DNA of 64,000 nt from Taklimakanibacter lacteus (GTDB taxonomy: Bacteria > Pseudomonadota > Alphaproteobacteria > Rhizobiales > Aestuariivirgaceae), in assembly GCA_003576695.1 (NCBI GenBank), contig QOZQ01000001.1:124001-188000 (forward strand), written 5' to 3'. Shown here one piece after another: positions 17,805 to 37,575 of this stretch; position 1 is the first letter of the stretch, and every line of letters begins with the position of its first letter. The notes beneath the pieces are model-generated. The model worked only from the letters and a program-made list of their open reading frames with translations, was not told the DNA's origin and made no database searches. A program made the translations under genes and the position numbers.

Positions 17805-19130
17805 ATGACGGCCGCCCAGTATGAGACATCGGAAATCCTCATCGACAAAGTGTCGGACTGGCTGAAGCAGGCATCGCTCAGAAACACCGATCTCGAGACC
17901 GTGGTGCGCGGCTGCTGCGAAAGACTGGCCGCGACCGGCATTCCCGTGAAACGCATCCATGTCTCGCTGTCCATGCTGCATCCGCTCTATCGCGCCATGG
18001 GCTTCACCTGGCGTCGCGGCGAAGGCCTCAAGGTCGAAGGCTACCGCCATGTCGAGCCCGGCCAGGAAAAGAACGATATGTTCCTCAAGAGTCCTTATTT
18101 CCATCTCCTGAGCCACGGACTCGAGCATATGCGCCGGCGCATCGATGTCGACGCGCAGCCGGAATTTCCGATCTTCGAAGACCTCAGGAAGGAAGGCATC
18201 ACCGACTATCTCGCTTTCGTGTCGGGCTTCGATGAGGAATGGACGCAGGGCATCCTCGGCTCCTGGTCGACCGACCGGCCGGGCGGCTTCAATGAAAGCG
18301 ACATCGCGGCGCTGCTGCGCATCCAGAGCCGGCTCGCGGTGGCGACACGCGTCGCGGTGCTGAGCCAGCTCGCCGGCAACATGCTGACCACCTATCTCGG
18401 CAACGGCGCGGGCAAGCGCGTGCTGTCGGGCCAGATCCAGCGCGGCGACGGCGAGACGATCCGCGCCGCCCTCATCATAGCCGACATGCGCGGCTCGACG
18501 GCGATCGCCGAGCAGGCCGGCCGGCAGGTCTTCATCGACACGCTCAACCAGTTCTTCGATGCGATCGCCACGCCCTTCGGCGAAGGCGGGGCGGAGATAC
18601 TGAGCTTCCTCGGCGACGGTTTCCTGGCGGTCATCCCTTGCGCCCGGCATCGCGGGCCTTCGGAGATCGCCTGCCGGCAGGCGCTGGCCGCCGCCCATAA
18701 TGCGGTGGCGCGCATGACACAGCTCAATGAGCAGCGCCGGAGCGAGAACCTGCCGGAAATCGGCTATGGGCTGGGGCTGCATGTCGGCAATGTCATGTTC
18801 GGCAATGTCGGCCTGAAGGACAGGCTCACCTTCTCGGCCTTCGGCCAGGCGGTGAACGAGGTCCAGCGGCTCGAGAGCCTGTCGAAGAAATACAAGACGC
18901 CGATCATTGCCAGCGACGAATTTGCCCTTTATAGCGGCGGCAACTGGAAGATGCTGGGGATCGAGACTTTGCGGGGCACCGAATACGACATGAAGGTCCA
19001 TGCGCCCATCGAGGGCAAGGGCACGGTCACCGACTATGTGCCGGCCAGCAAGGCGCGCGATCTCACCGACGCCGAGCAGCTCATCCTGCTGCATCGCGAC
19101 AAATATCTCACCCGGCGCAAGGCGAGCTGA
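17805..19130 (+). CDS. Class III adenylate/guanylate cyclase, soluble
   Basis: A 441-residue protein. Residues 1-205 form an N-terminal sensory-like region without membrane segments, of a type often seen in rhizobial cyclases. Residues 218-400 are the class III catalytic domain. Metal aspartates are D227 (ADMRGSTA) and D271 (FLGDGFLAV), and the transition-state pair is N351 and R355 (FGQAVNEVQRLE). The usual Asp before AVN is Gln, a position that normally helps read the base, so ATP versus GTP preference is uncertain. The stop overlaps the next start by one base. GGGAGGAAGG lies 17-26 bases upstream of ATG 17805. Confidence 0.88.
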   Translation: MTAAQYETSEILIDKVSDWLKQASLRNTDLETVVRGCCERLAATGIPVKRIHVSLSMLHPLYRAMGFTWRRGEGLKVEGYRHVEPGQEKNDMFLKSPYFHLLSHGLEHMRRRIDVDAQPEFPIFEDLRKEGITDYLAFVSGFDEEWTQGILGSWSTDRPGGFNESDIAALLRIQSRLAVATRVAVLSQLAGNMLTTYLGNGAGKRVLSGQIQRGDGETIRAALIIADMRGSTAIAEQAGRQVFIDTLNQFFDAIATPFGEGGAEILSFLGDGFLAVIPCARHRGPSEIACRQALAAAHNAVARMTQLNEQRRSENLPEIGYGLGLHVGNVMFGNVGLKDRLTFSAFGQAVNEVQRLESLSKKYKTPIIASDEFALYSGGNWKMLGIETLRGTEYDMKVHAPIEGKGTVTDYVPASKARDLTDAEQLILLHRDKYLTRRKAS

Positions 19131-20101
19131 TGCGACGTTTCGCGGCAACGGGCCTCGTCCTGGCGGGCCTCCTGGCTCTCGGTGCGCAGCCGGCGGCGGC
19201 CGGCGCGAAGCTCACCTATCAGGACAAGCTCGTCGACGGTTTCGAGGGCGCGGATTTCGCCCCCGAGGGCGGGCTCTATTACAAGAAGAATTTCGAGCAG
19301 AGCGCCGGCACCTTCGAGTTCCAGGACGAGGTGGTGCATCGCGGCAAGCGCGCCTTACGGTTGTCGGTGAAGCCGCTGTGCCCGGTGAGCCAACCTTTGT
19401 GCAGCGAGCGGGCGGAAATCTGGGAGCGCAGCAAGCTCAGAGTTCCTTACGACACCGGGGTCTGGTACGGCTTCGCGGTCAAATTCGCCGAACCCTTGCC
19501 CCAGGATGACCACCGCTACCTGGTCGCCCAGTGGAAGCGCGAGATCGAGGCCGGCGCCAACGGCGATTTCAGCCCGTTCCTGGCCTTCCGCTACAATGAA
19601 GGCAAGTTCTTCATCACGGTCGAAACCAACCTGGTGCCGGGCAAGGAGATCGAGAAGGGCAAGAGAGCTATTTGCGCCCCGGGCGAAACGGCGGTCTGGC
19701 TTCGCCCCGACACCAACCAGACGCGGGCACTGGTCGCCTTCGACAAGAATTTCGGGCCTGAGAACGGGGACGAGTTCACCGCCTGCACCGACAAGATCAC
19801 CGTCACCGATCACGGCAATAAGCTGCCGGCGGCGGACAGCGGCTGGATCGATTTTGCCGTCTATTCGAAACCCGGTCCCGAGGGCACCGGCCATATAGAG
19901 ATATTCGCCAACGACAAATGGATCGTCACCGTCAAAGGCCGCATCGGCCACAATGACAAGGGGCTGGGCGAGAACCAGTATTTCAAGTTCGGGCCGTACC
20001 GGGCCGGGGGCCCCGGGGTCTGGGCTCTCTATTATGACGACTTCCGCCGCAGCCTCCGTTGTGCAGATGTTACCAAGCCGCAGATTTGCCCCTTTCCCTA
20101 G
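19130..20101 (+). CDS. Exported polysaccharide-lyase-like protein (heparin lyase I fold)
   Basis: A 323-residue secreted protein with a signal peptide (TGLVLAGLLALGAQPAAAG). It contains the pattern of the Polysacc_lyase (PF14099) beta-jelly-roll family. YDTGVWYGFAVKFAEPLP is followed by YLVAQWKREIEAG, with a late GPYRAGGPGVWALYYDDFR strand. Family members cleave or bind uronate-containing glycans in the periplasm or outside the cell. Its start overlaps the cyclase stop (TGATG), so it is probably coupled to it. An oligopeptide/oligosaccharide-type ABC importer follows after 79 bases and could take up products. That link is inference. Confidence 0.75.
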   Translation: MRRFAATGLVLAGLLALGAQPAAAGAKLTYQDKLVDGFEGADFAPEGGLYYKKNFEQSAGTFEFQDEVVHRGKRALRLSVKPLCPVSQPLCSERAEIWERSKLRVPYDTGVWYGFAVKFAEPLPQDDHRYLVAQWKREIEAGANGDFSPFLAFRYNEGKFFITVETNLVPGKEIEKGKRAICAPGETAVWLRPDTNQTRALVAFDKNFGPENGDEFTACTDKITVTDHGNKLPAADSGWIDFAVYSKPGPEGTGHIEIFANDKWIVTVKGRIGHNDKGLGENQYFKFGPYRAGGPGVWALYYDDFRRSLRCADVTKPQICPFP

Positions 20102-26141: not shown

Positions 26142-26229
26142 GGGGGCATCCTCACCATATGGTCGAGTTGCCGCGCCATGGCCTGGTCCGCCGGTTCCGG
26201 CGGGCCGGAAAAAAGAGAGGGGAGTGCTG

Positions 26230-27441
26230 ATGCGCCGGCTCGAACATGCTCGAATCCTCATGTACAGCCACGACACCTTCGGCCTCGGGCATCTCAGAAG
26301 GTGCCGCACCATCGCCCATTCGCTGGTCGAGAACTACCGGGGCCTGAGCGTCCTCATCATCTCGGGCTCAACCATCGCGGGCGCCTTCGACTACCGCGTG
26401 CGCGTCGACTTCGTGAAGATTCCCTCGATCATCAAGCTGCATAACGGCGAATATACATCGCTCGACCGCCACACCGATCTGCATGAGACGCTGGAGATGC
26501 GCCAGGCGATCATCCGCCATACGGCCGAATCCTTCCAGCCCGACATGTTCATCGTCGACAAGGAGCCGCTCGGCCTGCGCGGCGAGCTCGAGGAGACGCT
26601 TTCCTATCTCAAGACGCACGGCACCACGCTGGTGCTCGGCCTGCGCGAGGTCATGGACGCACCCAATCTGCTCAAGGCCGAATGGGCCAAGCGCGATGTC
26701 CTGCGCAAGGCCGGGATGTTCTACGATTCGATCTGGGTCTACGGTCCTGAGGACTTCTACGATCCGCTCACCGGCTTCGATGTGCCGCAGAATGTCCGGT
26801 CGCGCATGCATTATGTCGGCTTCCTGCAGCGGCATCTGCCGCAGGCCGACGTGCCGATGCGCGAGGTCGAGGGCAACTACATACTGGCGACGACGGGCGG
26901 CGGCGGCGACGGCGCCGATCTCATCCACAATATCTTCGACGCCTACCGCCATGACGCAACCCTGACGCACCGGCTGCTGGTGGTGCTCGGGCCGTTCATG
27001 CCGGCGCGCAAGCGGCGCAAGCTCCTCAAGAAGGGCTCGGCCATTCCCAATGTCGAGATCATCGAATTCGACAACCGCATGGAAAATCTGGTCGCCGGCG
27101 CCCGCGCCGTGGTCGGCATGGGCGGCTACAATACCTTCTGCGAGATCCTGTCCTTCGACAAGCCGGCGCTCATCGTGCCACGCGTGACGCCGCGCGAAGA
27201 GCAGCTGATCCGCGCCCGGCGTGCCGCCGAACTCGGCGTCATCGACATGCTGCTGCCGGAAGAGGCGGAAGACCCGGCGCGCCTTGCCGAGGCGCTCAAG
27301 GTCCTGCCCGAGCGGGCGCCGCCCTCCAAGGTCACCTCGAAGCTAAGGCTCGACGGGCTCGAGAGGATCACCGATCTCGTCGGCGAATGGCTCGAGCCCG
27401 GCTCGCAGAAGCGGCTTTCGGTCATCGAAGGCGGAAATTGA
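26230..27441 (+). CDS. Predicted glycosyltransferase (COG4671 / MurG-like GT-B)
   Basis: A 403-residue GT-B fold protein. The N-terminal donor/acceptor motif SHDTFGLGHLRRCRTIA is typical of COG4671-type proteins. The C-terminal half has TTGGGGDGADLI and the nucleotide-sugar patch VVGMGGYNTFCEIL with LIVPRVTPREEQ. ATG 26230 is preceded by GAGGGGAG at 26217-26224. GTG 26224 is an alternative. It is the first of three coupled sugar-transfer genes. A role in surface polysaccharide or glycoconjugate synthesis is inferred from family and neighbours. Confidence 0.82.
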   Translation: MRRLEHARILMYSHDTFGLGHLRRCRTIAHSLVENYRGLSVLIISGSTIAGAFDYRVRVDFVKIPSIIKLHNGEYTSLDRHTDLHETLEMRQAIIRHTAESFQPDMFIVDKEPLGLRGELEETLSYLKTHGTTLVLGLREVMDAPNLLKAEWAKRDVLRKAGMFYDSIWVYGPEDFYDPLTGFDVPQNVRSRMHYVGFLQRHLPQADVPMREVEGNYILATTGGGGDGADLIHNIFDAYRHDATLTHRLLVVLGPFMPARKRRKLLKKGSAIPNVEIIEFDNRMENLVAGARAVVGMGGYNTFCEILSFDKPALIVPRVTPREEQLIRARRAAELGVIDMLLPEEAEDPARLAEALKVLPERAPPSKVTSKLRLDGLERITDLVGEWLEPGSQKRLSVIEGGN

Positions 27442-28676
27442 CGAAGAAGATCGTCATCGTTTTGAAAGGCTATCCGCGTCTCTCGGAAACCTTCATCGCC
27501 CAGGAACTGCGCGGCCTCGAGCTTGCCGGTCACGCGCTCGTCCTCATGTCGATGCGTCATCCCACCGACAAGAAGCGTCATCCGGTACATGACGAGATCG
27601 AGGCGCCGGTCACTTATCTGCCGGAATATCTGCGCGACGACCCGCTGAGGGTCCTCAGGGCCTGGTGGAAGATGCGCCGGCACAGAAACTACCGGTCGAT
27701 GCGAAGCGCCTTCCTGGCCGATCTCAGGCGTGACCGGACGCGCAACCGCTGGCGCCGCTTCGGCCAGGCCCTGGTGCTGGCGGCCGAATTCCCCGCCGAT
27801 TTCAATTGGCTGCATGCGCATTTCATCCACACGCCGGCGGCAGTCACGCGCTATGCGAGCCTGCTTCTCGGCGTCGGGTGGAGCTGCTCGGCGCATGCCA
27901 AGGACATCTGGACATCACCGGACTGGGAGCTGCGCGACAAGCTCGCCGATGCCCGCTTCGTCGTGACCTGCACCAAAGCCGGGTTCGACAAGCTCAAGAG
28001 CCTGAGCCCCGATCCTGCGCGCGTGCATTTGAGCTATCATGGCCTCGATCTCGCCCGTTTCGGCCGCTTCACGGCGGAGCGCCCGGCGCGCGACGGCACG
28101 GTCATCCGGGATCCTGTGGTCCTGCTCAGCGTCGGGCGGGCGGTGGAGAAGAAGGGCTATGGCGTGCTGCTCGATGCGCTGGCGCTGCTGCCCGGGGACC
28201 TCTCCTGGCGTTTCGTCCATATCGGCGGCGGCGAGCTCTTGCCGGCACTCAAGGCCAGGGCGGAAGCGCTCGGGCTGGCGGAACGCATCCTTTGGCAAGG
28301 GTCCATGGCGCAGGCCGAGGTGCTGGCGCAGTATCGCGAGAGCGATCTCTTCGTGCTGCCCTGCCGCATCGCCAGCGACGGCGACCGCGACGGACTGCCC
28401 AATGTGCTGGTCGAGGCGGCGAGCCAGCGGCTGGCTTGCGTGTCGACGACGATCTCGGGCGTGCCGGAACTTCTCAGCGACAAAGTAAACGGGCTTCTGG
28501 TGGCGCCCGACGATCCGGGCGCCTTGAGCGAAGCTCTCGCCAAGGCCATCCGCGATCCCCTTCTCAGGCGTGAGTTCGGCGATGCGGCGGAGCGGCGCGT
28601 GCGCAGCGATTTCGATCATGCGGCGAGCATCCGTCAGCTCACCCGGCTGTTCGGCGGCGTGCGGGATGCGGCATGA
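27438..28676 (+). CDS. Glycosyltransferase, GT4 family
   Basis: A 412-residue GT-B glycosyltransferase. It starts at TTG 27438, overlapping the previous stop as TTGA. The N-terminus KKIVIVLKGYPRLSETFIA and the pattern HAHFIHTPAAVTRYA are typical of GT4 enzymes of exopolysaccharide pathways. The C-terminal half has LSVGRAVEKKGYGVLLDA and DGLPNVLVEAASQRLACVS, the nucleotide-sugar binding EX7E region (here with Asp and Glu). It probably transfers a hexose from an NDP-sugar. Donor and acceptor are unknown. Confidence 0.88.
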   Translation: MTKKIVIVLKGYPRLSETFIAQELRGLELAGHALVLMSMRHPTDKKRHPVHDEIEAPVTYLPEYLRDDPLRVLRAWWKMRRHRNYRSMRSAFLADLRRDRTRNRWRRFGQALVLAAEFPADFNWLHAHFIHTPAAVTRYASLLLGVGWSCSAHAKDIWTSPDWELRDKLADARFVVTCTKAGFDKLKSLSPDPARVHLSYHGLDLARFGRFTAERPARDGTVIRDPVVLLSVGRAVEKKGYGVLLDALALLPGDLSWRFVHIGGGELLPALKARAEALGLAERILWQGSMAQAEVLAQYRESDLFVLPCRIASDGDRDGLPNVLVEAASQRLACVSTTISGVPELLSDKVNGLLVAPDDPGALSEALAKAIRDPLLRREFGDAAERRVRSDFDHAASIRQLTRLFGGVRDAA

Positions 28677-29797
28677 AGGCACTCATCTATGTCCAGCATC
28701 TTCTCGGCATCGGCCATCTGGCGCGGGTCAGCCGCATCGCTTCGGCGCTCGAGCAGGCGGCGGTCGACGTCACGCTGGTGAGCGGCGGACCGCCGGTGAC
28801 GGGCTTTCCGACCGGCCAGGTGCGGGTGGTGCAATTGCCGCCCATACGGTCACGCGATGCGGCCTTCTCGGCGCTCGTCGATCAAGATGATCAGCCGGTC
28901 AGTGCGGCGCTCAAGGCGCAGAGATGCGAGCGTCTGCTTGCCGAGTTCGACGCGCTCGACCCCGATGTGCTCATCATCGAGGCCTTTCCATTCGGCCGCC
29001 GGCAGATGCGCTTCGAACTGCTGCCGCTCATCGAGCGCGCCAAGGCGAGGGTAAGGCCGCCCCTGATCGCAAGCTCGGTGCGCGATATCCTGCAGGAGAA
29101 CCGCAAGGCCGGGCGTGCGGAAGAGACACTGGCGCTCATCAAGGACTTTTTCGATCTCATTCTCGTTCATGGCGATCCGGGCTTCGCGCGGCTCGAAGAG
29201 ACGTTCCCGCGCGCAGCCGAGATCAGGGAGCGCATCGCCTATACCGGGCTGGTGGCCGGCGCGTCGGCGCCGTCGCCCGACCGGTTCGACGTGGTGGTCT
29301 CGGCCGGCGGCGGCATTGTCGGGCAGCGGCTGGTCGCGACCGCGGCCATGGTGGCGGCGCGCCTCGCCGCCCAATGGCCGCGCTGGTGCATCATCACCGG
29401 CCCGCATTTCCCGCCGGGCGAAAAAGCGGCGCTCGCCGCGACGCTGCCCGCCGGCATCCGGCTCGAGACCTTCCGGGCCGACTTCCCCGGGCTTCTCGCC
29501 AATGCCCGGCTGTCCATATCGCAGGCCGGCTACAATACGGTCTGCGACCTCCTGCAGGCCCGCTGCCGCGCGGTTCTCATACCCTTCGCGGCCGGGGGCG
29601 AGACCGAGCAGAGCGAGCGCGCCCGCCGCCTGGCGGAGCTGGGCCTTGCCGCGGTCGTGACCGAGAACGAACTGACGCCCGAAAGCCTGGCCGCGGCGAT
29701 GGCCGGCGCGCCGTCGCCCGCGACGCACAAGATCAGTCTCGACGGGGCCGCGGAAACGGCCCGTATCCTGGCCCAGCGCCTGGCGGGCCGGCAATGA
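28673..29797 (+). CDS. Predicted glycosyltransferase (second COG4671/MurG-like)
   Basis: A 374-residue GT-B protein distantly paralogous to the product of 26230-27441. It opens with YVQHLLGIGHLARVSRIASA (same GxGHxxR motif) and has the C-terminal patches VVSAGGGIVGQRLV and ISQAGYNTVCDLL. The ATG overlaps the previous stop by four bases, so the three transferases are one translational unit. A pair of related transferases around a GT4 enzyme suggests successive additions to one glycan. Confidence 0.82.
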   Translation: MKALIYVQHLLGIGHLARVSRIASALEQAAVDVTLVSGGPPVTGFPTGQVRVVQLPPIRSRDAAFSALVDQDDQPVSAALKAQRCERLLAEFDALDPDVLIIEAFPFGRRQMRFELLPLIERAKARVRPPLIASSVRDILQENRKAGRAEETLALIKDFFDLILVHGDPGFARLEETFPRAAEIRERIAYTGLVAGASAPSPDRFDVVVSAGGGIVGQRLVATAAMVAARLAAQWPRWCIITGPHFPPGEKAALAATLPAGIRLETFRADFPGLLANARLSISQAGYNTVCDLLQARCRAVLIPFAAGGETEQSERARRLAELGLAAVVTENELTPESLAAAMAGAPSPATHKISLDGAAETARILAQRLAGRQ

Positions 29798-29928: not shown

Positions 29929-32658
29929 ATGGATAAGAATCTCGCAGTATACATCTGGAGGCACACGAGCCGGCAGCAGATCTGGATCCTGTTCATCATC
30001 CTGCTGTCGATGCCGACCTATTTCCTGTCGCTCGACCTGCCCAAGCAGATCGTCAACGGACCGATCCAGGGTGATGGCTTCAACACACCCGATGCCCAGC
30101 AGACCTTCCTGAAGATCGTCCTCGACCTTCCCGACTGGCTGGGGAAGATCGAGCCCGTCGTCCTTTTCGAGGGCTTCCATCTCAGCCGCTTCGGCATGCT
30201 GATGGCGCTGTCGGCGGCCTTTCTCCTCCTGGTCGTCGTCAACGGGCTGTTCAAATTCTACATCAATACCTTCAAGGGCCGGCTCGGCGAGCGCATGCTG
30301 CGCCGCCTGCGCTTCCAGCTCATCGACCGCGTGCTGCGCTTCCCGCCCAATGTGTTCAAGCGGGTGAAGGCTTCGGAAGTCGCCACCATGGTGAAGGATG
30401 AAGTCGAGCCCCTGGGCGGCTTCATCGGCGATGCCTTCGTGCAACCGGCCTTCCTCGGCATGCAGGCGGGGACCGCGCTCTTCTTCATCGTGCTGCAGAA
30501 TTTCTGGCTCGGCATCCTGGCCGCCTTCATGGTCGGCATTCAGGGGATCATCATCCCCAAGATGCGCCGCCGCCTCATCCGGCTGGGCAAGGAGCGCCAG
30601 CTCACCGCCCGCCAGCTGGCGGGCCGGGTCGGCGAGATCGTCGACGGCATCTCGTCGATCCACGTCCATGATACGTCGAACTACGAGCGTGCCGATATCG
30701 CCAGCCGCCTGGGACGCATCTTCAAGATCCGCTACGACCTCTATCAGTGGAAATTCTTCGTCAAGTTCCTCAACAATTTCCTGGCGCAGGTCACGCCCTT
30801 CCTGTTCTACGCGATCGGCGGCTATCTGGCGCTCAGGGGCCAGCTTGATATCGGTCAGCTGGTCGCGGTGATCTCGGCCTACAAGGACCTGCCGAGTCCG
30901 ATCAAGGACCTGATCGACTGGGACCAGCAGCGTCTCGATGTGCAGGTCAAATATGCGCAGGTCTATGAGCAGTTCCATGTCGACCAGCTCATCGATCCCG
31001 CGGTCCAGGCGCTCGCCAGCAAACCGGCGACGCCGATCGAGACGCCGATCTCGATCTACAATTTTTCCGCCAGCGACGACAGCGGCGCCAGGCTGCTCGA
31101 GAACATCACGCTCGACATCCGCCCGGGCGAGAATGTCGCGGTCATCGGCACCGCCGGCGGCGGCACCGAAGCGCTTGCCGACGCCATTGCCCGGCTGGTC
31201 TGGCCGGAGAACGGCCGCATCTCCGTCAACGGCGCGGATCTGCTGGCGCTGCCGGAAGCCGTCACCGGACGGCGCATTGCCTATGCGGCAGGCGAGGCGC
31301 ATCTGTTCCAGGGCACCATCTACGACAATCTCGTCTATGTGCTGAAACACTATCCGGTTCGCCATCCGGCCTATGAAGGAACGCTCGCCAGCCAGCGCGA
31401 ATGGGAAGTGAGCGAAGCGCAGCGCGCCGGCAACCCCGATCACGATCTGCGCAGCGATTGGATCGACTATGAGACGATCGGCGCCAAGGGGCCGGAAGAT
31501 CTTTCCGCCGCCGTCGAGCATGTCCTCGAAGCCGTCTCCTTCTCCGATGATGTCTTCGATCTGGGACTGCGGGCCTCACTCGACGAGAAGCTGCATCCGG
31601 CGATCCCGAGGCACATCGTCGAGGCCCGCAAGGCGCTGCAGACGCGGCTCGACGAAGAGGGGCTTTCCGGCCTCGTCGCGTCCTTCGATCTCGCACTCTA
31701 CAACACCGAGGCGACGGTGGCCGAGAATCTCCTGTTCGGCACGCCGGTCGGGCCTGAGCTTTCCAACGCCAATCTGGCGGCGAATGCCTATTTCCGCTCC
31801 ATCCTGACGCAATCGAATCTCGATGAGGCGCTCTATCGCATGGGCGTCGAGATCGCCCGCAACGCGGTAGAGCTGTTCCGCGACCTGCCGCCCGATCATC
31901 CGTTCTTCCAGCAGCTCATCTTCATGACGGCGGACGAGATCCCGGACTATCAGGCGCTGCTGCAGCGCGTTCAGGACAAGCCCTTCGCCGCGATCTCGGA
32001 GGCGGATCGCCGGCGCATGATGAAGCTCACCTTCTCCTATGTCGAGCCGCGCTACCGCTTCGGCCTGCTCGACGACGGGATGATGGAGCGTATCGTCCAG
32101 GCGCGCATGGTCTTCCACGACAATCTGCCCGACAACCTCAAGGGCGCGATCGAGCTCTATGATCCGGAAGGCTACAATAAATCGGCGAGCATCCTCGACA
32201 ATGTGCTGTTCGGCCGCGTCGGCCACCGGCACGCGGATGCCGGCGACCGCATCCGCGGCATCGTGCGCGCGGTGCTCGATGATCTCGATCTCAGCCAGGA
32301 CGTGATGAAGGTGGGACTTGAATTCAACGTCGGCGTCGGAGGCCGCCGCCTCACCACGGTGCAGCGCCAGAAGCTGCATGTGGCGCGGGCTCTGCTCAAG
32401 CGCGGCGATTTCATCATCCTGAACAAGGCGCTGTCGTCGGTCGAGCAGCGCACGCAGGAGCAGTTGGTCCGCTCGGTGCTGGGCGAAGCCGCCCGCGACG
32501 GGCGCAAGCCGGCGGTGATCTGGGTGCTGAGCAATCCCAATCTCGCCCGCCTGTTCGACAGGGTGGTGGTGCTGGACCGGGGGGTTGCCGTCGAGGACGG
32601 CAATTATGACCATCTGATGTCCCGAAAGGGCGTTTTCGCCGGTCTCCTGGCGTCGTAA
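29929..32658 (+). CDS. ABC-exporter-like protein with degenerate nucleotide-binding domain
   Basis: A 909-residue protein, far longer than the usual 580-650 for an exporter half. Residues 1 to about 330 are an ABC exporter membrane domain. From about 375 an ABC ATPase-like fold starts, but every catalytic motif is altered. The Walker A position reads GTAGGGTE (407-414, Lys replaced by Thr), the signature reads LTTVQ (808-812), Walker B reads FIILNKALSS (828-837, Asp-Glu replaced by Asn-Lys), and the H-loop reads VLSNPNL. About 290 extra residues lie between Q-loop and signature. The segment resembling LFxGTIxENLxxG occurs three times (about 460-472, 592-604, 750-762). It is unlikely to hydrolyse ATP. 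A cyclic-nucleotide-binding gene follows after 30 bases. Confidence 0.8.
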   Translation: MDKNLAVYIWRHTSRQQIWILFIILLSMPTYFLSLDLPKQIVNGPIQGDGFNTPDAQQTFLKIVLDLPDWLGKIEPVVLFEGFHLSRFGMLMALSAAFLLLVVVNGLFKFYINTFKGRLGERMLRRLRFQLIDRVLRFPPNVFKRVKASEVATMVKDEVEPLGGFIGDAFVQPAFLGMQAGTALFFIVLQNFWLGILAAFMVGIQGIIIPKMRRRLIRLGKERQLTARQLAGRVGEIVDGISSIHVHDTSNYERADIASRLGRIFKIRYDLYQWKFFVKFLNNFLAQVTPFLFYAIGGYLALRGQLDIGQLVAVISAYKDLPSPIKDLIDWDQQRLDVQVKYAQVYEQFHVDQLIDPAVQALASKPATPIETPISIYNFSASDDSGARLLENITLDIRPGENVAVIGTAGGGTEALADAIARLVWPENGRISVNGADLLALPEAVTGRRIAYAAGEAHLFQGTIYDNLVYVLKHYPVRHPAYEGTLASQREWEVSEAQRAGNPDHDLRSDWIDYETIGAKGPEDLSAAVEHVLEAVSFSDDVFDLGLRASLDEKLHPAIPRHIVEARKALQTRLDEEGLSGLVASFDLALYNTEATVAENLLFGTPVGPELSNANLAANAYFRSILTQSNLDEALYRMGVEIARNAVELFRDLPPDHPFFQQLIFMTADEIPDYQALLQRVQDKPFAAISEADRRRMMKLTFSYVEPRYRFGLLDDGMMERIVQARMVFHDNLPDNLKGAIELYDPEGYNKSASILDNVLFGRVGHRHADAGDRIRGIVRAVLDDLDLSQDVMKVGLEFNVGVGGRRLTTVQRQKLHVARALLKRGDFIILNKALSSVEQRTQEQLVRSVLGEAARDGRKPAVIWVLSNPNLARLFDRVVVLDRGVAVEDGNYDHLMSRKGVFAGLLAS

Positions 32659-32688: not shown

Positions 32689-33153
32689 ATGCAGCTGAGA
32701 GATGAAGTTGAGCTGTTGCGGCGCGTGCCGTTGTTTTCGGGCGTCGCTCCGGCCAAGCTCAAGCTTCTGGCCTTCACGTCGGACCGGGTCAGCTTCAGCA
32801 GCGGACAGACCTTGTTCAAGCAGGGGGATCCGGGCGATGCCGCCTATGTGGTTCTCTCCGGCTCGGCCGACATCCTGGTCAATTCGCAAAGCGGCGAGAT
32901 CAAGGTGGCGACTCTCGAACCCAATTCGATCGTCGGCGAGATCGCCATTCTCTGCGACGTCGCGCGCACCGCGACGGTCCGGGCCAATGCGCCGCTCGAG
33001 ACACTGCGCATCCGCAAGGACCATTTCCTTAAGCTGCTGGCGGAGTTTCCGGAGATGGCGGTCGAGATCATGCGGGTGCTCGCCGACCGTCTCAGCCACA
33101 CGACCGCCGAGCTCAGCGAAGCGCGCAGCGAATTGCGGCGCAAGACGCACTAG
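32689..33153 (+). CDS. Cyclic-nucleotide-binding domain protein (stand-alone CNB)
   Basis: A 154-residue cytoplasmic protein consisting of one CRP-type cyclic nucleotide-binding domain and no DNA-binding domain. VPLFSGVAPAKLKLLAF opens the domain. The beta-roll includes LFKQGDPGDAAYVVLSGSAD. The phosphate-binding cassette reads VGEIAILCDVARTATV, with the conserved Glu and the Arg that bind cAMP or cGMP. The C-terminal helix ends in a charged tail. It lies between the degenerate ABC protein and an adenylate cyclase, so it is a probable receptor for the cyclase product acting on a protein partner. Confidence 0.9.
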   Translation: MQLRDEVELLRRVPLFSGVAPAKLKLLAFTSDRVSFSSGQTLFKQGDPGDAAYVVLSGSADILVNSQSGEIKVATLEPNSIVGEIAILCDVARTATVRANAPLETLRIRKDHFLKLLAEFPEMAVEIMRVLADRLSHTTAELSEARSELRRKTH

Positions 33154-33177: not shown

Positions 33178-34890
33178 ATGGCGCATCCCGACGTTGCCTT
33201 GCCTCACAAGATGACGCTGCCGCGCGTGAGCCTGCGCCAGGCGCGGCTCGCCACCGGCCTTGTGCTGTTCGCCTTCGTGCTCACGCACTTCCTCAATCAT
33301 GCGGTGGGCCTGGTTTCCATCGATGCGATGGAATGGGTGCGTGACCTGCGCACCGCCGTCACCCGCAGCCTCGTCGGCACGCTCATCCTTGCCGGCGCGT
33401 TCGTTATCCATTTCGTGCTCGGTGTCGTGGTTTTCGTCGGCCGGCGCAATCTCAGGATCGCAGCGCATGAATGGGTGCAGCTCGCCTTCGGCCTCCTCAT
33501 TCCGCTTCTTCTGATGCGCCATGTCACCGGCTTGCGCGTCGCCCATGAATATGTGGGCTTCGAGGACAACTACACTTACGCGCTATGGGTCATGTGGACA
33601 TCGGAGGCGGTACGCCAGGCCGTGTTGATGATCCTGGTGTGGGTGCATGGCTGCATCGGTCTGCATCACTGGCTCGAATTCAGGAGCTGGTATCGCGATC
33701 TCAAATGGCTGTGGGTGGCGCTCGCCACCCTCATCCCGGCGCTGGCCTATGCGGGCTTCGCCTCGGCCGGCCGTGCGGTGCGCTACGAAACCGATTTCCA
33801 GCCGCCGTTCACTCCCGAGCAATACAAATTTCTTCTCGGGCTCATGAACTACGAGTTCTACGGCTATCTGGGCGTGCTTGCCGCGGTGGTGGCGGTGCGC
33901 GCAGGGCTCAGCGCCGTCGACCATTACCGGCACAAGATCACCGTCACCTATACGGGCGGGCAGCGCGTGTCGGCGCGGCGCGGCATGTCGGTCCTGGAGA
34001 TCAGCCGCTTCAACAATATCCCGCATGCCTCGGTCTGCGGCGGCCGGGCGCGCTGCTCGACCTGCCGGGTGCGGGTGATCGAAGGGGCGGCGAACGAGCC
34101 TCCACCCGATGCCGGCGAGCGCCGCGTGCTGCAGCGCGTCGGCGCCCCGGCCAATGTCAGGCTCGCCTGCCAGTATCGACCGGTGAGCGACATCACCGTC
34201 ACGACTTTGCTGCCGGCGGTGAGCGTCGATGCGCTAGGCGGGCTGACGGACAAGTATTTCTGGGGCGTCGAGCAGGACGTCACGGTCATGTTCTGCGATT
34301 TGCGCGGCTTCACCCGGCTGTCCGAGCAGCGTCTCTCGTATGACGTCGTGTTCCTGCTCAACCAGTATCTCGGCCGCATGAGCGAGGTCATCAACGATAC
34401 CGGCGGCTATGTCGACAAGTTCATGGGCGACGGCATCATGGCGATCTTCGGCATGGACCGGCCGGCGAAAGCGGGTGCCCGCGATGCGCTCGCGGCGACG
34501 CGCGCGATGGGCGGCGTGCTCGATGCCCTCAACCAAAGCCTGCATGAGGAATTGCGCGGCAAGCTCGAAATGGGGATCGGGCTGCATGCGGGCACGGCCA
34601 TATTGGGGCGCATAGGGGCGGCAGGCAAATCCTCGGGTGCCGGCGGCGTTACGGCGCTCGGCGACACGGTCAATACCGCAAGCCGTCTCGAAGGAGCGTG
34701 CAAGGAGCTCAATATGCAGGCCATCATTTCCACAGCCGTCCTGGACAAGGCCGGGGTCGAGAGGGGCGGGCTCGAGACCCGGCGAATCGACATTCGCGGG
34801 CGGGTCGAGCCCATCGAGGTGGTGGCGGTCAAGCGGGCGACGGAGCTTCCCGCTTTGGAGTTCCATAGCACGCCAGACCTGCTACGATAG
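33178..34890 (+). CDS. cyaC: Membrane-bound redox-regulated adenylate cyclase (CyaC-like)
   Basis: A 570-residue protein with three parts. Residues about 20-245 form a six-helix membrane anchor with one histidine near each of helices 1-4 (H37, H78, H115, H157), the tetra-histidine pattern of diheme-B succinate:quinone reductase anchors. Residues about 253-345 are a ferredoxin-type 2Fe-2S domain with C287, C293, C296 and C331. Residues 360-550 are a class III cyclase with D374, D418, N499 and R503. Sinorhizobium meliloti CyaC has been described as a diheme and 2Fe-2S adenylate cyclase responding to quinone redox state, and the layout matches. It likely turns respiratory state into cAMP. Confidence 0.88.
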   Translation: MAHPDVALPHKMTLPRVSLRQARLATGLVLFAFVLTHFLNHAVGLVSIDAMEWVRDLRTAVTRSLVGTLILAGAFVIHFVLGVVVFVGRRNLRIAAHEWVQLAFGLLIPLLLMRHVTGLRVAHEYVGFEDNYTYALWVMWTSEAVRQAVLMILVWVHGCIGLHHWLEFRSWYRDLKWLWVALATLIPALAYAGFASAGRAVRYETDFQPPFTPEQYKFLLGLMNYEFYGYLGVLAAVVAVRAGLSAVDHYRHKITVTYTGGQRVSARRGMSVLEISRFNNIPHASVCGGRARCSTCRVRVIEGAANEPPPDAGERRVLQRVGAPANVRLACQYRPVSDITVTTLLPAVSVDALGGLTDKYFWGVEQDVTVMFCDLRGFTRLSEQRLSYDVVFLLNQYLGRMSEVINDTGGYVDKFMGDGIMAIFGMDRPAKAGARDALAATRAMGGVLDALNQSLHEELRGKLEMGIGLHAGTAILGRIGAAGKSSGAGGVTALGDTVNTASRLEGACKELNMQAIISTAVLDKAGVERGGLETRRIDIRGRVEPIEVVAVKRATELPALEFHSTPDLLR

Positions 34891-34915
34891 GGCCAAGCGA
34901 GGGTTTAAGTACTTG

Positions 34916-35746
34916 ATGGCGAAACCAGATTTTACCGTGAAGTTCTGGGGTGCGCGGGGAAGCATCCCGGTCTCGGGTCCCGATTTCGCCCGTTATGGCG
35001 GCGATTCGTCCTGTGTCGAGATGCGCTGCGGCGAGCATCTTCTGATGTTCGATGCCGGCTCCGGCCTCAAGCGCGCCGGCATCGAGATCGAGGAGAAGGG
35101 CCTCAAGCGCCTCGACATGTTCTTCTCGCATTGCCACTGGGATCATATTTTCGGTATCCCGTTCTTCATGCCGTTCTATCGCGGCAGCATGAAGATCAGG
35201 ATCTGGTCGGGGCATCTGGCGGGCGTGATGACCACTCATGAAATGATCTCAGGGATCATGAAGGCGCCCTATTTTCCGATCGCGCCGGAAATCTTCATCG
35301 CCGATGTCGACTACCGGGATTTCAAGCCGGGCGATGTGCTGACCCCCCATGACGGCGTCACCTTGCGTACCGGCAGCCTCAATCACCCCAATGGCGCCGT
35401 CGGCTACCGGGTCGAATTCCAGGGCAAATGCGCCTGCTACATCACCGACACGGAGCATGTGCCCGGCAAGCTCGACCAGAATGTGCTCAAGCTCATCGAT
35501 CATGCCGACCTCGTCATCTATGACGCGGCCTTCGTCGAGAAGGAGATGCAACGCTATCGGGGCTTCGGCCATTCAAGCTGGGAAGAAGGCGTGCGCCTGT
35601 GCCGGGCGGCCAAGGCCAGGAAGCTTGCCATCTTCCATCATTCGCCCTTGCGTACCGACAGCGAACTCGATGCCATCGGCAAGGATGCGCAAGCGGCTTT
35701 TTCCGGCGCCTTCGTGGCGCGCCAGGGGCAGGTGATCGAGCTCTGA
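34916..35746 (+). CDS. MBL-fold metallo-hydrolase (PhnP/COG1235-like)
   Basis: A 276-residue metallo-beta-lactamase-fold protein. KFWGARGSIPVSGPDFARYG leads into the dinuclear metal motif SHCHWDHIFG (HxHxDH), and further ligands lie in GSLNHPNGAVGY, YITDTEH and IFHHSP. No signal peptide, so cytoplasmic. It starts 25 bases after the cyclase stop. The fold includes phosphodiesterases (PhnP and class II cAMP phosphodiesterases), so hydrolysis of a cyclic nucleotide made next door is an attractive but unproven idea. It converges end to end with the deacetylase gene. Confidence 0.85.
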   Translation: MAKPDFTVKFWGARGSIPVSGPDFARYGGDSSCVEMRCGEHLLMFDAGSGLKRAGIEIEEKGLKRLDMFFSHCHWDHIFGIPFFMPFYRGSMKIRIWSGHLAGVMTTHEMISGIMKAPYFPIAPEIFIADVDYRDFKPGDVLTPHDGVTLRTGSLNHPNGAVGYRVEFQGKCACYITDTEHVPGKLDQNVLKLIDHADLVIYDAAFVEKEMQRYRGFGHSSWEEGVRLCRAAKARKLAIFHHSPLRTDSELDAIGKDAQAAFSGAFVARQGQVIEL

Positions 35747-36499
35747 TTATGGGCCGATCAGGTCGCCGGGGGTGCGCCAGCTGACCGCTTGCGATTGCGC
35801 GGTGGCGGAGAAGAGACCGCGCAGGAAGCCGAAGGCTTCGTCATCGCTCACCAGATGATGGCTCAATATGCCGATGGGAGTGCCTCCCGCCCGCCGCGCG
35901 CGCTCGAGCTCCTGCGTCAGCGAAGCCACCAGCACCGTATGGTCACGGCAGGCATTGCCGGCGCGCGAGTCGATGATGTCGACATGCGTGTTGACGACAC
36001 TGAGGCGGGGTCGCGAGACGAGCTTGTGGCCGAAGACCGAGAGCGCTGTGAAGCCGAGAGAAGGCAGATCATCGAGCAGGGAAACAGCGATGCGATTCCA
36101 GGGCGGCACCAGCATCGCTGTGAGGCGCCTGCCGTAGAGGTCAGTGAGCCGCGTCAGGCCTTCGGCCAGGTCCTTCAGCACAACGCCCGGCGGGCGATGG
36201 TCGCCCAGCTCCTGCTTCTTCTCCGCGGGCGGCGCATGATTGGCGTGCGACCAGCCATGGACGAGCGGATGAACGAATTCAGCGTTGTCGAGATGGCGGG
36301 CGAGCGCCGGGCCGGTTCTGGCGGGGATGATCGCGAGCCCGACCGGAACGGCGAATTCCGCCGTCAAGGCGATCAGCCGGTCGAGTTTCGGCGTCGGCGC
36401 GATGGCATCGTCGTCGCGCAGCCACAGATCTGCCCTGCGTCCGGCTTCACGCCAAAGCGCAAGCTCGGTGAGAACCGGCTGCCACAAACCAGGCGTCAC
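35747..36499 (-). CDS. Polysaccharide deacetylase-family protein
   Basis: A 250-residue protein of the NodB-like deacetylase superfamily in its short divergent form. The likely metal ligands are DDDAIAP (about residues 28-34) and HGWSHANH, with VPPWNRI and GILSHHL as later active-site strands. It has no signal peptide. It starts at GTG, overlapping the stop of the upstream glycosyltransferase (GTGA). Its own stop abuts the MBL-fold gene stop with no gap. It would remove acetyl groups from a glycan or glycan precursor. Confidence 0.78.
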   Translation of the reverse strand: MTPGLWQPVLTELALWREAGRRADLWLRDDDAIAPTPKLDRLIALTAEFAVPVGLAIIPARTGPALARHLDNAEFVHPLVHGWSHANHAPPAEKKQELGDHRPPGVVLKDLAEGLTRLTDLYGRRLTAMLVPPWNRIAVSLLDDLPSLGFTALSVFGHKLVSRPRLSVVNTHVDIIDSRAGNACRDHTVLVASLTQELERARRAGGTPIGILSHHLVSDDEAFGFLRGLFSATAQSQAVSWRTPGDLIGP

Positions 36500-37575
36500 G
36501 CCAGCGCGTCCTTCAGGAGCTGGGCGAGACGGCGCGAGGCCGGCGCCAGAGCGCGCTCGTCCAGCACGAAGCTTCGCGCGGCCTGGCCATAGGCCTTGCG
36601 CTTGGCATCATCGCTGAAGAGATCACGGATCGCTGCGGCATAGGCTGCGACGTCGCCATCGGGCGTCAGGAGACCGGTGCGGCCATGCTCGACCACGGCG
36701 GGAACGCCGGCGGTCGCCTGCGCCACCACCGGCATGCCGGCAGCCTGTGCCTCGAGATAGGCCAGGCCATAGGCCTCGCCGCAGCCCGGCCACACATAAA
36801 TGCCGCCCTTGCGCAAAGCGGACGGCACGGCGTCGGGGGCAAGCTCGCCCCGCCAGTCGAAACGCTCACGCGGAAGGCCTGCGAACAAGGCAATGGTTTC
36901 GCGCCGCACCGGGCCATCGCCGATGACCGAGAGATGCCAGGGCAGGTCGGGCAGCAAGGCCAGCGCCTTGGCCAGCATGGTAAAGCTCGCGAATTTGTCG
37001 CCCTTGCGCATCATCGCCACGGTCATGAGGTTTCGGCCCGCCGGTTCGGCGAAACCATCCGCGAAGGCGGCCGTATCGATGAAGGGTACAAGCGACGCGA
37101 AGCGGCCGCCAGGCACCGCCCTGCCAAGACCGTCGCGGTCGCGGTCGGTGAAGCACAGATTGAGGCGGGCAAGGGTGATGGCGTCGCGAACCCAGGCCTG
37201 CGCCGCGGCCCAGCCCTGCCGGTCGCGCCGCGGCGAATAGGACGCTTCCGCGGTGACATAGGGAATATCGAAATGACGCGCGAGATCGGGACCCAGGAGA
37301 TCGGGTGCCTTGTAATAGGGATGATAGGTGAACCACAGATCGGGCTTGCCCGTCTGCGTCCAGACCTGCATGAGCCTCGCCTTTTCCGCATCGGCAGCCT
37401 GCCGAAGCTTGGGCATGAGATCGGGTTCCGGCGTGAAGGCGCGCAAGGTGCTGGCGACAGAGACGCGGAAGCCCGCTGTTTCCAGCGCCCGGATGAGAAG
37501 ACGCCCCATCTCCCGGTCTCCGGAAGGGACAGGATGGTCGGGCGCTTTGAGCGGGGCGTAGAAAGCGATCTTCAC
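36496..37575 (-). CDS. Glycosyltransferase, GT4 family
   Basis: A 359-residue GT-B enzyme starting at GTG 37575. It opens with KIAFYAPLKAPDHPVPSGDR. The donor-binding half has GRNLMTVAMMRKGDKFASF and IYVWPGCGEAYGLAYLEAQA followed by GMPVVAQATAGVPAVVEHG, the usual GT4 nucleotide-sugar region. It is coupled to the deacetylase gene downstream. The divergent gene at 37659 is 83 bases away, so promoters for both directions must fit in that gap. It is likely part of the same glycan pathway as the transferases at 26230-29797. Confidence 0.86.
   Translation of the reverse strand: MKIAFYAPLKAPDHPVPSGDREMGRLLIRALETAGFRVSVASTLRAFTPEPDLMPKLRQAADAEKARLMQVWTQTGKPDLWFTYHPYYKAPDLLGPDLARHFDIPYVTAEASYSPRRDRQGWAAAQAWVRDAITLARLNLCFTDRDRDGLGRAVPGGRFASLVPFIDTAAFADGFAEPAGRNLMTVAMMRKGDKFASFTMLAKALALLPDLPWHLSVIGDGPVRRETIALFAGLPRERFDWRGELAPDAVPSALRKGGIYVWPGCGEAYGLAYLEAQAAGMPVVAQATAGVPAVVEHGRTGLLTPDGDVAAYAAAIRDLFSDDAKRKAYGQAARSFVLDERALAPASRRLAQLLKDALA

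Follow-up and report, generated by a model that had tools for sequence, protein, structure and literature searches.

Can a membrane protein with the fold of an ATP-binding cassette (ABC) exporter still be under selection once the catalytic residues of its ATP site have gone, and what might it then do? ABC transporters are defined by ATP hydrolysis, and a gene of Taklimakanibacter lacteus (Alphaproteobacteria; Rhizobiales; Aestuariivirgaceae) raises the question. We analyzed it within a 64,000-nucleotide stretch, hereafter the window (NCBI GenBank assembly GCA_003576695.1, contig QOZQ01000001.1, positions 124,001 to 188,000 of the forward strand). The gene lies at 29929–32658 on the plus strand, next to a gene for a cyclic-nucleotide-binding (CNB) protein. 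The original prediction, made from the letters of the window, had described a selected pseudo-ATPase rather than a decaying gene and had suggested a receptor, channel or scaffold controlled by the CNB protein.

We found the first claim to be well supported at the level of sequence. For the function, we favor a part of a polysaccharide machine and consider it an even bet that the protein is a cyclic-nucleotide-gated, ABC-fold membrane component of a machine for surface polysaccharide, with no ATP hydrolysis of its own in its clade. The results do not distinguish among channel, pump and scaffold.

An exporter fold with a lost ATP site

The gene comprises 909 codons and a stop in an uninterrupted frame, with a guanine-cytosine content by codon position of 0.67/0.37/0.85. 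Its product has a six-helix exporter membrane domain, recognized by Pfam (ABC_membrane, PF00664, residues 93–316, E = 3.5e-19), by a structural model and by Foldseek matches to exporters. After residue 350 follows a domain resembling a nucleotide-binding domain (NBD), with the first part of ABC_tran at residues 390–496 (E = 2.5e-11); no Pfam match covers the insert. Length, membrane domain and open frame were thus as originally described. The structure prediction that had been proposed as a check, made with AlphaFold2 from 26 family sequences, recovered the ABC-exporter fold with a mean predicted local distance difference test (pLDDT) score of 83 and a predicted template modeling score (pTM) of 0.76. 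The NBD and insert mostly scored 85–95, and the model was weak in the membrane domain, with pLDDT below 50 at residues 179–198 and 313–323; the helices modeled there span residues 5–46, 87–137, 160–183, 194–239, 250–302, 308–318 and 324–348. Among the Foldseek matches listed, all were ABC exporters (P-glycoprotein, TmrAB, PCAT1, MsbA and TM287/288), although the whole-chain superposition was loose, half-transporters giving a target-normalized TM score of 0.54–0.62 and a root-mean-square deviation of 14–17 Å. A prediction for the insert only, run without an alignment, had a mean pLDDT of 45.8 and was not used. Among the best 25 of 114 NCBIfam matches to the protein, none was over its curated cut-off.

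The residues of an ATP-driven exporter are replaced throughout: Thr413 stands for the Walker A Lys and Glu414 for the following Ser/Thr, Asn832 and Lys833 for the Asp and the catalytic Glu of Walker B (FIILNKAL) and Ser868 for the H-loop His. These losses had been read correctly from the sequence. The claim that the signature was destroyed as well goes too far, as LTTVQ is degenerate but not erased: compared with LSGGQ, it keeps the Leu and Gln and has lost the glycines. The signature helix, RLTTVQRQKL in the window protein, persists in the family, with Leu808 kept in 145, Gln812 in 135 and Arg820 in 145 of 150 relatives.

When these 150 relatives were placed in a tree with six canonical exporters from the genome of the window, the window protein fell in a clade of 57 (support 1.00). 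No member of the clade keeps Lys413, Ser/Thr414, Asp832, Glu833 or His868 (57, 57, 56, 56 and 55 rows, respectively, have a letter at these positions), and 43 of the 57 have Arg or Lys at position 833. Across the 150 relatives, with a gap scored as not kept, 74 retain none of the five residues, 22 one, 36 two, 13 three, 4 four and one all five (locus L208; locus and genome numbers are our own). The loss is therefore graded, and the search for orthologues with intact motifs had a divided outcome: all 57 in the clade share the lost motifs, while the distant L208 keeps the five residues and four others keep four. One may ask whether the protein is simply an ordinary ABC exporter with diverged motifs, as L208 and the public records would have it; the latter name the relatives ABC transporter ATP-binding proteins and some of the partners Crp/Fnr regulators. 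With none of the five residues surviving anywhere in the window clade, we regard this as highly improbable.

To assess selection, we computed the ratio of nonsynonymous to synonymous substitution rates (dN/dS, Nei–Gojobori) for five pairs: the window with L011 and with L040, L040 with L041, Sinorhizobium meliloti with S. medicae, and R. leguminosarum with R. etli. Over the membrane domain, the NBD halves and the insert, the ratio was 0.019–0.255, some cells resting on one or two changes, and it was 0.04–0.24 in the insert. Low values in every region argue against decay, and the ratio near 1 that would have spoken for it was found nowhere (0.02–0.26 everywhere), in agreement with the original prediction.

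Changes at the ATP site were correlated on the tree. Of the 127 sequences with an acidic residue at 414, 120 lack Asp832, as do 13 of the 22 others, and a model of dependent change was favored (likelihood ratio 17.2, p = 0.0018); Ser/Thr414 with Asp832 gave p = 0.0007. A basic residue at 833 is present in 44 of the 64 sequences that lack a basic 413 and in none of the 85 that have one (likelihood ratio 14.3, p = 0.0065), while the test of basic 413 against acidic 833 gave p = 0.06 and that of Lys413 against His868 p = 0.002. Such patterns could reflect a rewired nucleotide site, in which an acidic residue was shifted from Walker B to Walker A, Ser/Thr414 becoming Glu/Asp and Asp832 becoming Asn/Ser, and, in the window clade, a basic residue from Walker A to the position of the catalytic Glu, with an unusual nucleotide or a cyclic nucleotide as the ligand. 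The 413/833 exchange, however, happened essentially on one branch, and its test is therefore pseudoreplicated. Five pairs, uncorrected and with no random-column controls, make the sequence correlations a lead only, and we give the rewired site very little credence.

Triplication of the helical subdomain

From Q-loop to signature, canonical exporters have 64 residues (69 in one) and the window protein 361. The surplus of ~297 residues is close to the ~290 first estimated. The segment around ENLxxG, which had been noticed three times and taken for a duplication followed by divergence, proved to be part of a larger repeat, the three copies carrying Asn467, Asn600 and Asn758. We cut family profiles at residues 425–555, 553–660 and 712–808 (modules 1, 2 and 3) and compared them using hhalign. 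Modules 2 and 3 matched with a pairwise E-value of 1.1e-16 (probability 99%), modules 1 and 2 with 8.4e-6 (65%) and modules 1 and 3 with 8.7e-6 (64%). Shorter cuts gave E-values of 1.5e-13 (modules 2 and 3), 1e-6 (1 and 2) and 2.4e-6 (1 and 3), and control segments of the same protein gave at least 0.025, with one exception that overlapped module 2. Compared with the Q-loop-to-signature stretch of the six canonical exporters of the same genome, module 1 gave E = 5e-9 and module 3 E = 4e-6, while the match of module 2 was weak (E = 4e-4, probability 16%). By these profile comparisons, the ~297 extra residues come from a triplication of the helical subdomain.

The modules contain most of the invariant sites of the family, while the ATP site varies. 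Gly429, Arg567, Asn600, Arg726, Asn758 and Gly762 are identical in 150 of 150 relatives and Trp511 in 149 of 149; Arg567 and Arg726, like Asn600 and Asn758, occupy equivalent positions in modules 2 and 3. The spacing between Asn467 and Arg807 is 335–350 residues in 48 of the 57 rows listed; the shortest is 314 and the longest 413.

The concentration of invariant residues in the modules rather than the ATP site, together with the glycosyltransferase genes that recur alongside, would suit a scaffold or assembly platform that moves nothing and holds the glycosyltransferases and the cyclic-nucleotide sensor at the membrane, the modules being its docking sites. The membrane domain is nevertheless the best conserved part of the family, with 50 of 350 sites at ≥95% compared with 15 of 553 in the NBD and insert, which exceeds the needs of an anchor. 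Moreover, the window genes scanned with Pfam, a part of the window, included no other candidate glycan exporter. We consider such a scaffold unlikely, although worth serious attention.

A conserved cyclic-nucleotide-binding partner

In the downstream protein, Pfam found PF00027 alone and no DNA-binding domain, which sets it apart from Crp/Fnr transcription factors. In 130 of 135 loci, the gene immediately 3' on the same strand encodes a CNB domain, or the domain is fused to the ABC protein. The first set accounts for 92 of 92 full-length loci, with 11 open reading frames (ORFs) of ~1000 residues or more, six overlapping-looking frames and 75 adjacent genes (median gap 44 nt, largest 616), and the second set for 38 of 43. 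The 11 fusions were called by ORF length, one of them (L037/L168) being confirmed by Pfam, and the CNB domains were located by similarity to the copy in the window. Loci with only a transmembrane domain (TMD) had a CNB gene in 0 of 5 cases. As a control, the same genome has nine places matching PF00664 and sixteen matching PF00027, and this pair alone is adjacent, the next being ~4 kb apart. Control by the CNB protein, as originally proposed, thus has strong genomic support.

The phosphate cassette of the CNB domain has the Gly in 130, Glu or Asp in 129 and the Arg in 130 of 130 homologues. As judged from the sequences, the cyclic-nucleotide site persists even where ATP-site residues have been lost, yet both sites can coexist. 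In favor of a gated protein, the five loci without a CNB domain all have Lys413 and Glu833, compared with 31 of 127 loci that have one (Fisher p = 0.0012; two clades only). Thr follows the cassette Arg in 81 of 92 cases in the first set and 34 of 38 in the second. In eukaryotic kinases and channels a Thr at this place goes with a preference for cGMP, a sign too weak here to choose between cAMP and cGMP.

Genomic surroundings and the Sinorhizobium meliloti cluster

The CNB gene is directly followed by that of a class III nucleotide cyclase, whose ferredoxin-like domain comes after a half that looks membrane-bound by eye; this cyclase may supply the cyclic nucleotide under redox control. The next gene encodes a hydrolase that reached 45 bits against the NCBIfam model cyc_nuc_deg_phdiest (cut-off 400). 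The glycosyltransferase genes lie on either side (Table 1), and a peptide-type importer upstream and a DUF3095 gene downstream are also nearby. Of 89 loci, 68 had a GT28a homologue close to the ABC gene (31/36, 31/40 and 6/13). In L160, a membrane-domain ORF of 360 residues on the reverse strand stands beside the same glycosyltransferase cluster, and no NBD was found in the following 2 kb, which suggests that at least one lineage can do without the ATPase.

Table 1. Features of the locus, with positions in the window
Feature	Position	Strand	Basis
Nucleotide cyclase (17805–19130) and polysaccharide lyase (19130–20101), upstream	17805–20101	+	Pfam
Glycosyltransferase, GT28-C type	26224–27441	+	Pfam, locus survey
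Glycosyltransferase, GT4 type	27387–28676	+	Pfam, locus survey
Glycosyltransferase, GT28-C type	28673–29797	+	Pfam, locus survey
Pseudo-ABC exporter, 909 aa	29929–32658	+	ORF, Pfam, model, Foldseek
Exporter membrane domain, residues 1–350	29929–30978	+	PF00664, model, conservation
Lost Walker A, GTAGGGTE, residues 407–414	31147–31170	+	ORF, family alignment
Module 1, residues 446–555, copy of the Q-loop-to-signature segment, with TIYDNL	31264–31593	+	hhalign
Module 2, residues 553–660, with ENLLFG; invariant R567, N600	31585–31908	+	hhalign
Module 3, residues 712–808, leading into the signature, DNVLFG; invariant R726, N758, G762	32062–32352	+	hhalign
Degenerate signature, LTTVQ, residues 808–812	32350–32364	+	Family alignment
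Degenerate Walker B and D-loop region (N832, K833, SSVE)	32407–32445	+	Family alignment
H-loop position, S868 in place of His	32530–32532	+	Family alignment
Single cyclic-nucleotide-binding domain, 154 aa; phosphate cassette GEIAILCDVARTATV	32689–33153	+	PF00027
Class III nucleotide cyclase with 2Fe-2S ferredoxin-like domain	33178–34890	+	Pfam Guanylate_cyc, Fer2
MBL-fold hydrolase, possible cyclic-nucleotide phosphodiesterase (weak)	34907–35746	+	Pfam Lactamase_B_2
Polysaccharide-deacetylase-like protein	35747–36499	-	Name from homologues' annotation; no Pfam match
Glycosyltransferase, GT4 type	36496–37575	-	Pfam, locus survey

Homologues of the window genes form one run in S. meliloti, directly after genes for a sulfotransferase, an aminotransferase and a PIG-L deacetylase. 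These three products correspond to smb21249, smb21248 and smb21247 as described in PMC5498481, and the run that follows them is therefore the cluster smb21252–smb21271, with the same gene set in the same place. From the first GT4 gene through the FkbM methyltransferase we counted 20 genes, the same number as there are tags from smb21252 to smb21271. Counting in this way, with end points of our own choice, would put the ABC gene at about SMb21269 and the CNB gene at about SMb21270. According to PMC10128002, the bacterium becomes sensitive to phazolicin when a transposon disrupts any of nine genes in the range smb21252–smb21271, and insertions in the adenylate cyclase gene cyaA were depleted as well; the authors speculate there that the product of the cluster is a protective surface polysaccharide (PPP) and consider it likely to be tied to symbiosis too.

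On pSymB of S. meliloti 1021 (L213, 23501–26210), the frame of the ABC gene is broken in two pieces, and in another S. meliloti record (L079) it is open; the break could be a sequencing error or a real difference. We rejected MsbA2 (SMb21191), another ABC protein encoded together with glycosyltransferases in an operon for polysaccharide, as the S. meliloti orthologue: the first gene of its operon lies at 938 kb of pSymB in a table of PMC3687685, and the stretch with the orthologue at 838–845 kb, a different locus.

Proposed mechanism and comparison with known systems

If the window protein is the cyclic-nucleotide-gated part of a polysaccharide machine, it would work as a homodimer with the type IV ABC-exporter fold, whose NBDs, in the window clade, would no longer hydrolyze ATP. 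The helical subdomain, copied twice, would extend the cytoplasmic face into a platform of modules on which the CNB protein, encoded downstream and in some relatives fused, could dock. cAMP or cGMP made by the neighboring cyclases would shift the conformation of the CNB protein and thereby of the membrane domain, allowing assembly of the glycan of the neighboring glycosyltransferases or its passage across the inner membrane. We tentatively suggest, as a possibility somewhat short of probable, that a lineage of ABC exporters retired its ATPase, copied the helical subdomain twice for docking and handed control to a cyclic-nucleotide-binding subunit, such that the second messenger opens the path of the glycan directly and not via transcription.

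If the proposal is true, the stepwise decay of the ATP site in a widespread family beside a near-invariant cyclic-nucleotide site would show how a pump turns into a signal-gated device, with natural intermediates in existence. It would also let cAMP or cGMP act directly, and not through transcription, on a surface polysaccharide linked in S. meliloti to resistance against an antimicrobial peptide, and would call into question the two database names, ABC transporter ATP-binding protein and Crp/Fnr regulator. We regard the family as a variant of the ABC exporter, and the case for a signal-gated class of its own as defensible.

Several observations weigh against the gated polysaccharide component. 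Lys413 is retained by 57 of the 150 relatives, and L208, with its five catalytic residues, has a CNB partner, so that ATP use stays possible in the family and the partner does not require loss of the ATPase. CNB domains are absent within ~1.8 kb in five of the 135 loci (L174, L175, L191, L193 and L203), on whose contigs, one of them just 5 kb, there was no match to PF00027. Adjacency and fusion of genes are no proof of direct contact, and in 21 of 89 loci a match to GT28a was not found within the stretch fetched. The gene is not universal, with 28 of 60 near relatives giving a match at E 1e-30 and 32 none, and the loci include many close relatives (e.g., Ensifer) that are not independent. The nine genes needed against phazolicin in S. 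meliloti may or may not include the ABC gene itself.

Finally, the surviving signature helix fits a subunit that completes the ATP site of a partner. The protein could thus still be driven by ATP, contributing its signature and D-loop to the ATP site of a canonical exporter that is encoded elsewhere and with which it pairs; the persistence of Leu808, Gln812 and Arg820 despite the loss of the cis-acting residues speaks for this. In heterodimeric exporters with a single degenerate site (TAP1/2, TmrAB and TM287/288), cis residues have likewise been lost and the signature helix kept, and Foldseek matched the window protein to both TmrAB and TM287/288. Unlike these, it has lost the Walker A Lys too. 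Only 27 of the 150 relatives keep the second signature Gly, and a second, canonical exporter, searched for with a profile of the six canonical ones, was encoded alongside in just 1 of 97 loci (L155), though a partner could be encoded at one of the eight other places in the genome that match PF00664. An ATP-using heterodimer therefore appears improbable to us.

The type IV exporters MsbA and PglK (TIGR02203, NF050066) have the same fold and a glycoconjugate context and provide the best profile matches, but the window protein stays far below both cut-offs (178 of 602 bits for MsbA, 56 of 1000 for PglK) and so falls outside TIGR02203; it differs from them in lacking the catalytic residues and in being ~297 residues longer. 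CFTR and SUR are ABC folds that have become a regulated channel and a regulator, and both bind ATP. In bacteriocin-type exporter systems (TIGR03896, TIGR03796) a CNB protein goes with the exporter, as here, and the CNB protein of the window matches TIGR03896 below the cut-off (E = 1e-11, 44.8 of 161 bits); the ATPases of those exporters are, as far as is known, intact.

Distribution and related proteins

A homologue of the membrane domain was found in 108 of 289 sampled Alphaproteobacteria (E 1e-25), a few being TMD-only; stretches were fetched for a part of the 108 genomes, and the full-length form was checked in those alone. In a sample of the phylum, 27 of 299 genomes matched at E 1e-70, all from the order or class of the window and some representing a paralogue family. 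Among the open-licence PMC papers listed by word searches, none had a title or displayed abstract that describes this protein as a pseudo-ATPase or mentions a CNB partner for it.

The first alignment was restricted to ORFs of at least 830 residues and 400 bits, and rows that did not differ between residues 100 and 600 were removed. Five rows were swapped for longer stretches of the same genomes; L086–L114 and L214–L223 were excluded from the alignments and L226–L228 from the tree, while L020 and L030, cut by contig ends, were retained.

The paralogue family (L224, L225 and L229; 7470–10022 in L224) shares the modules, but its membrane domain has diverged strongly and no catalytic residues are recognizable by eye; a CNB gene was not found in the stretch fetched. 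Genome G479 holds both families, with the member L226 and the dead paralogue L229, which raises the possibility that two pseudo-ABC proteins pair with each other. A 434-residue ABC membrane-domain protein in a copper-related cluster on a Pseudosulfitobacter plasmid (L080, 7773–9077) matches residues 1–349 of the query only. The member in L158 lies in an open frame of 1386 codons that begins ~500 codons before the usual start of the match, and the long, fused form is present three times in genome G190 (L155, L156 and L157).

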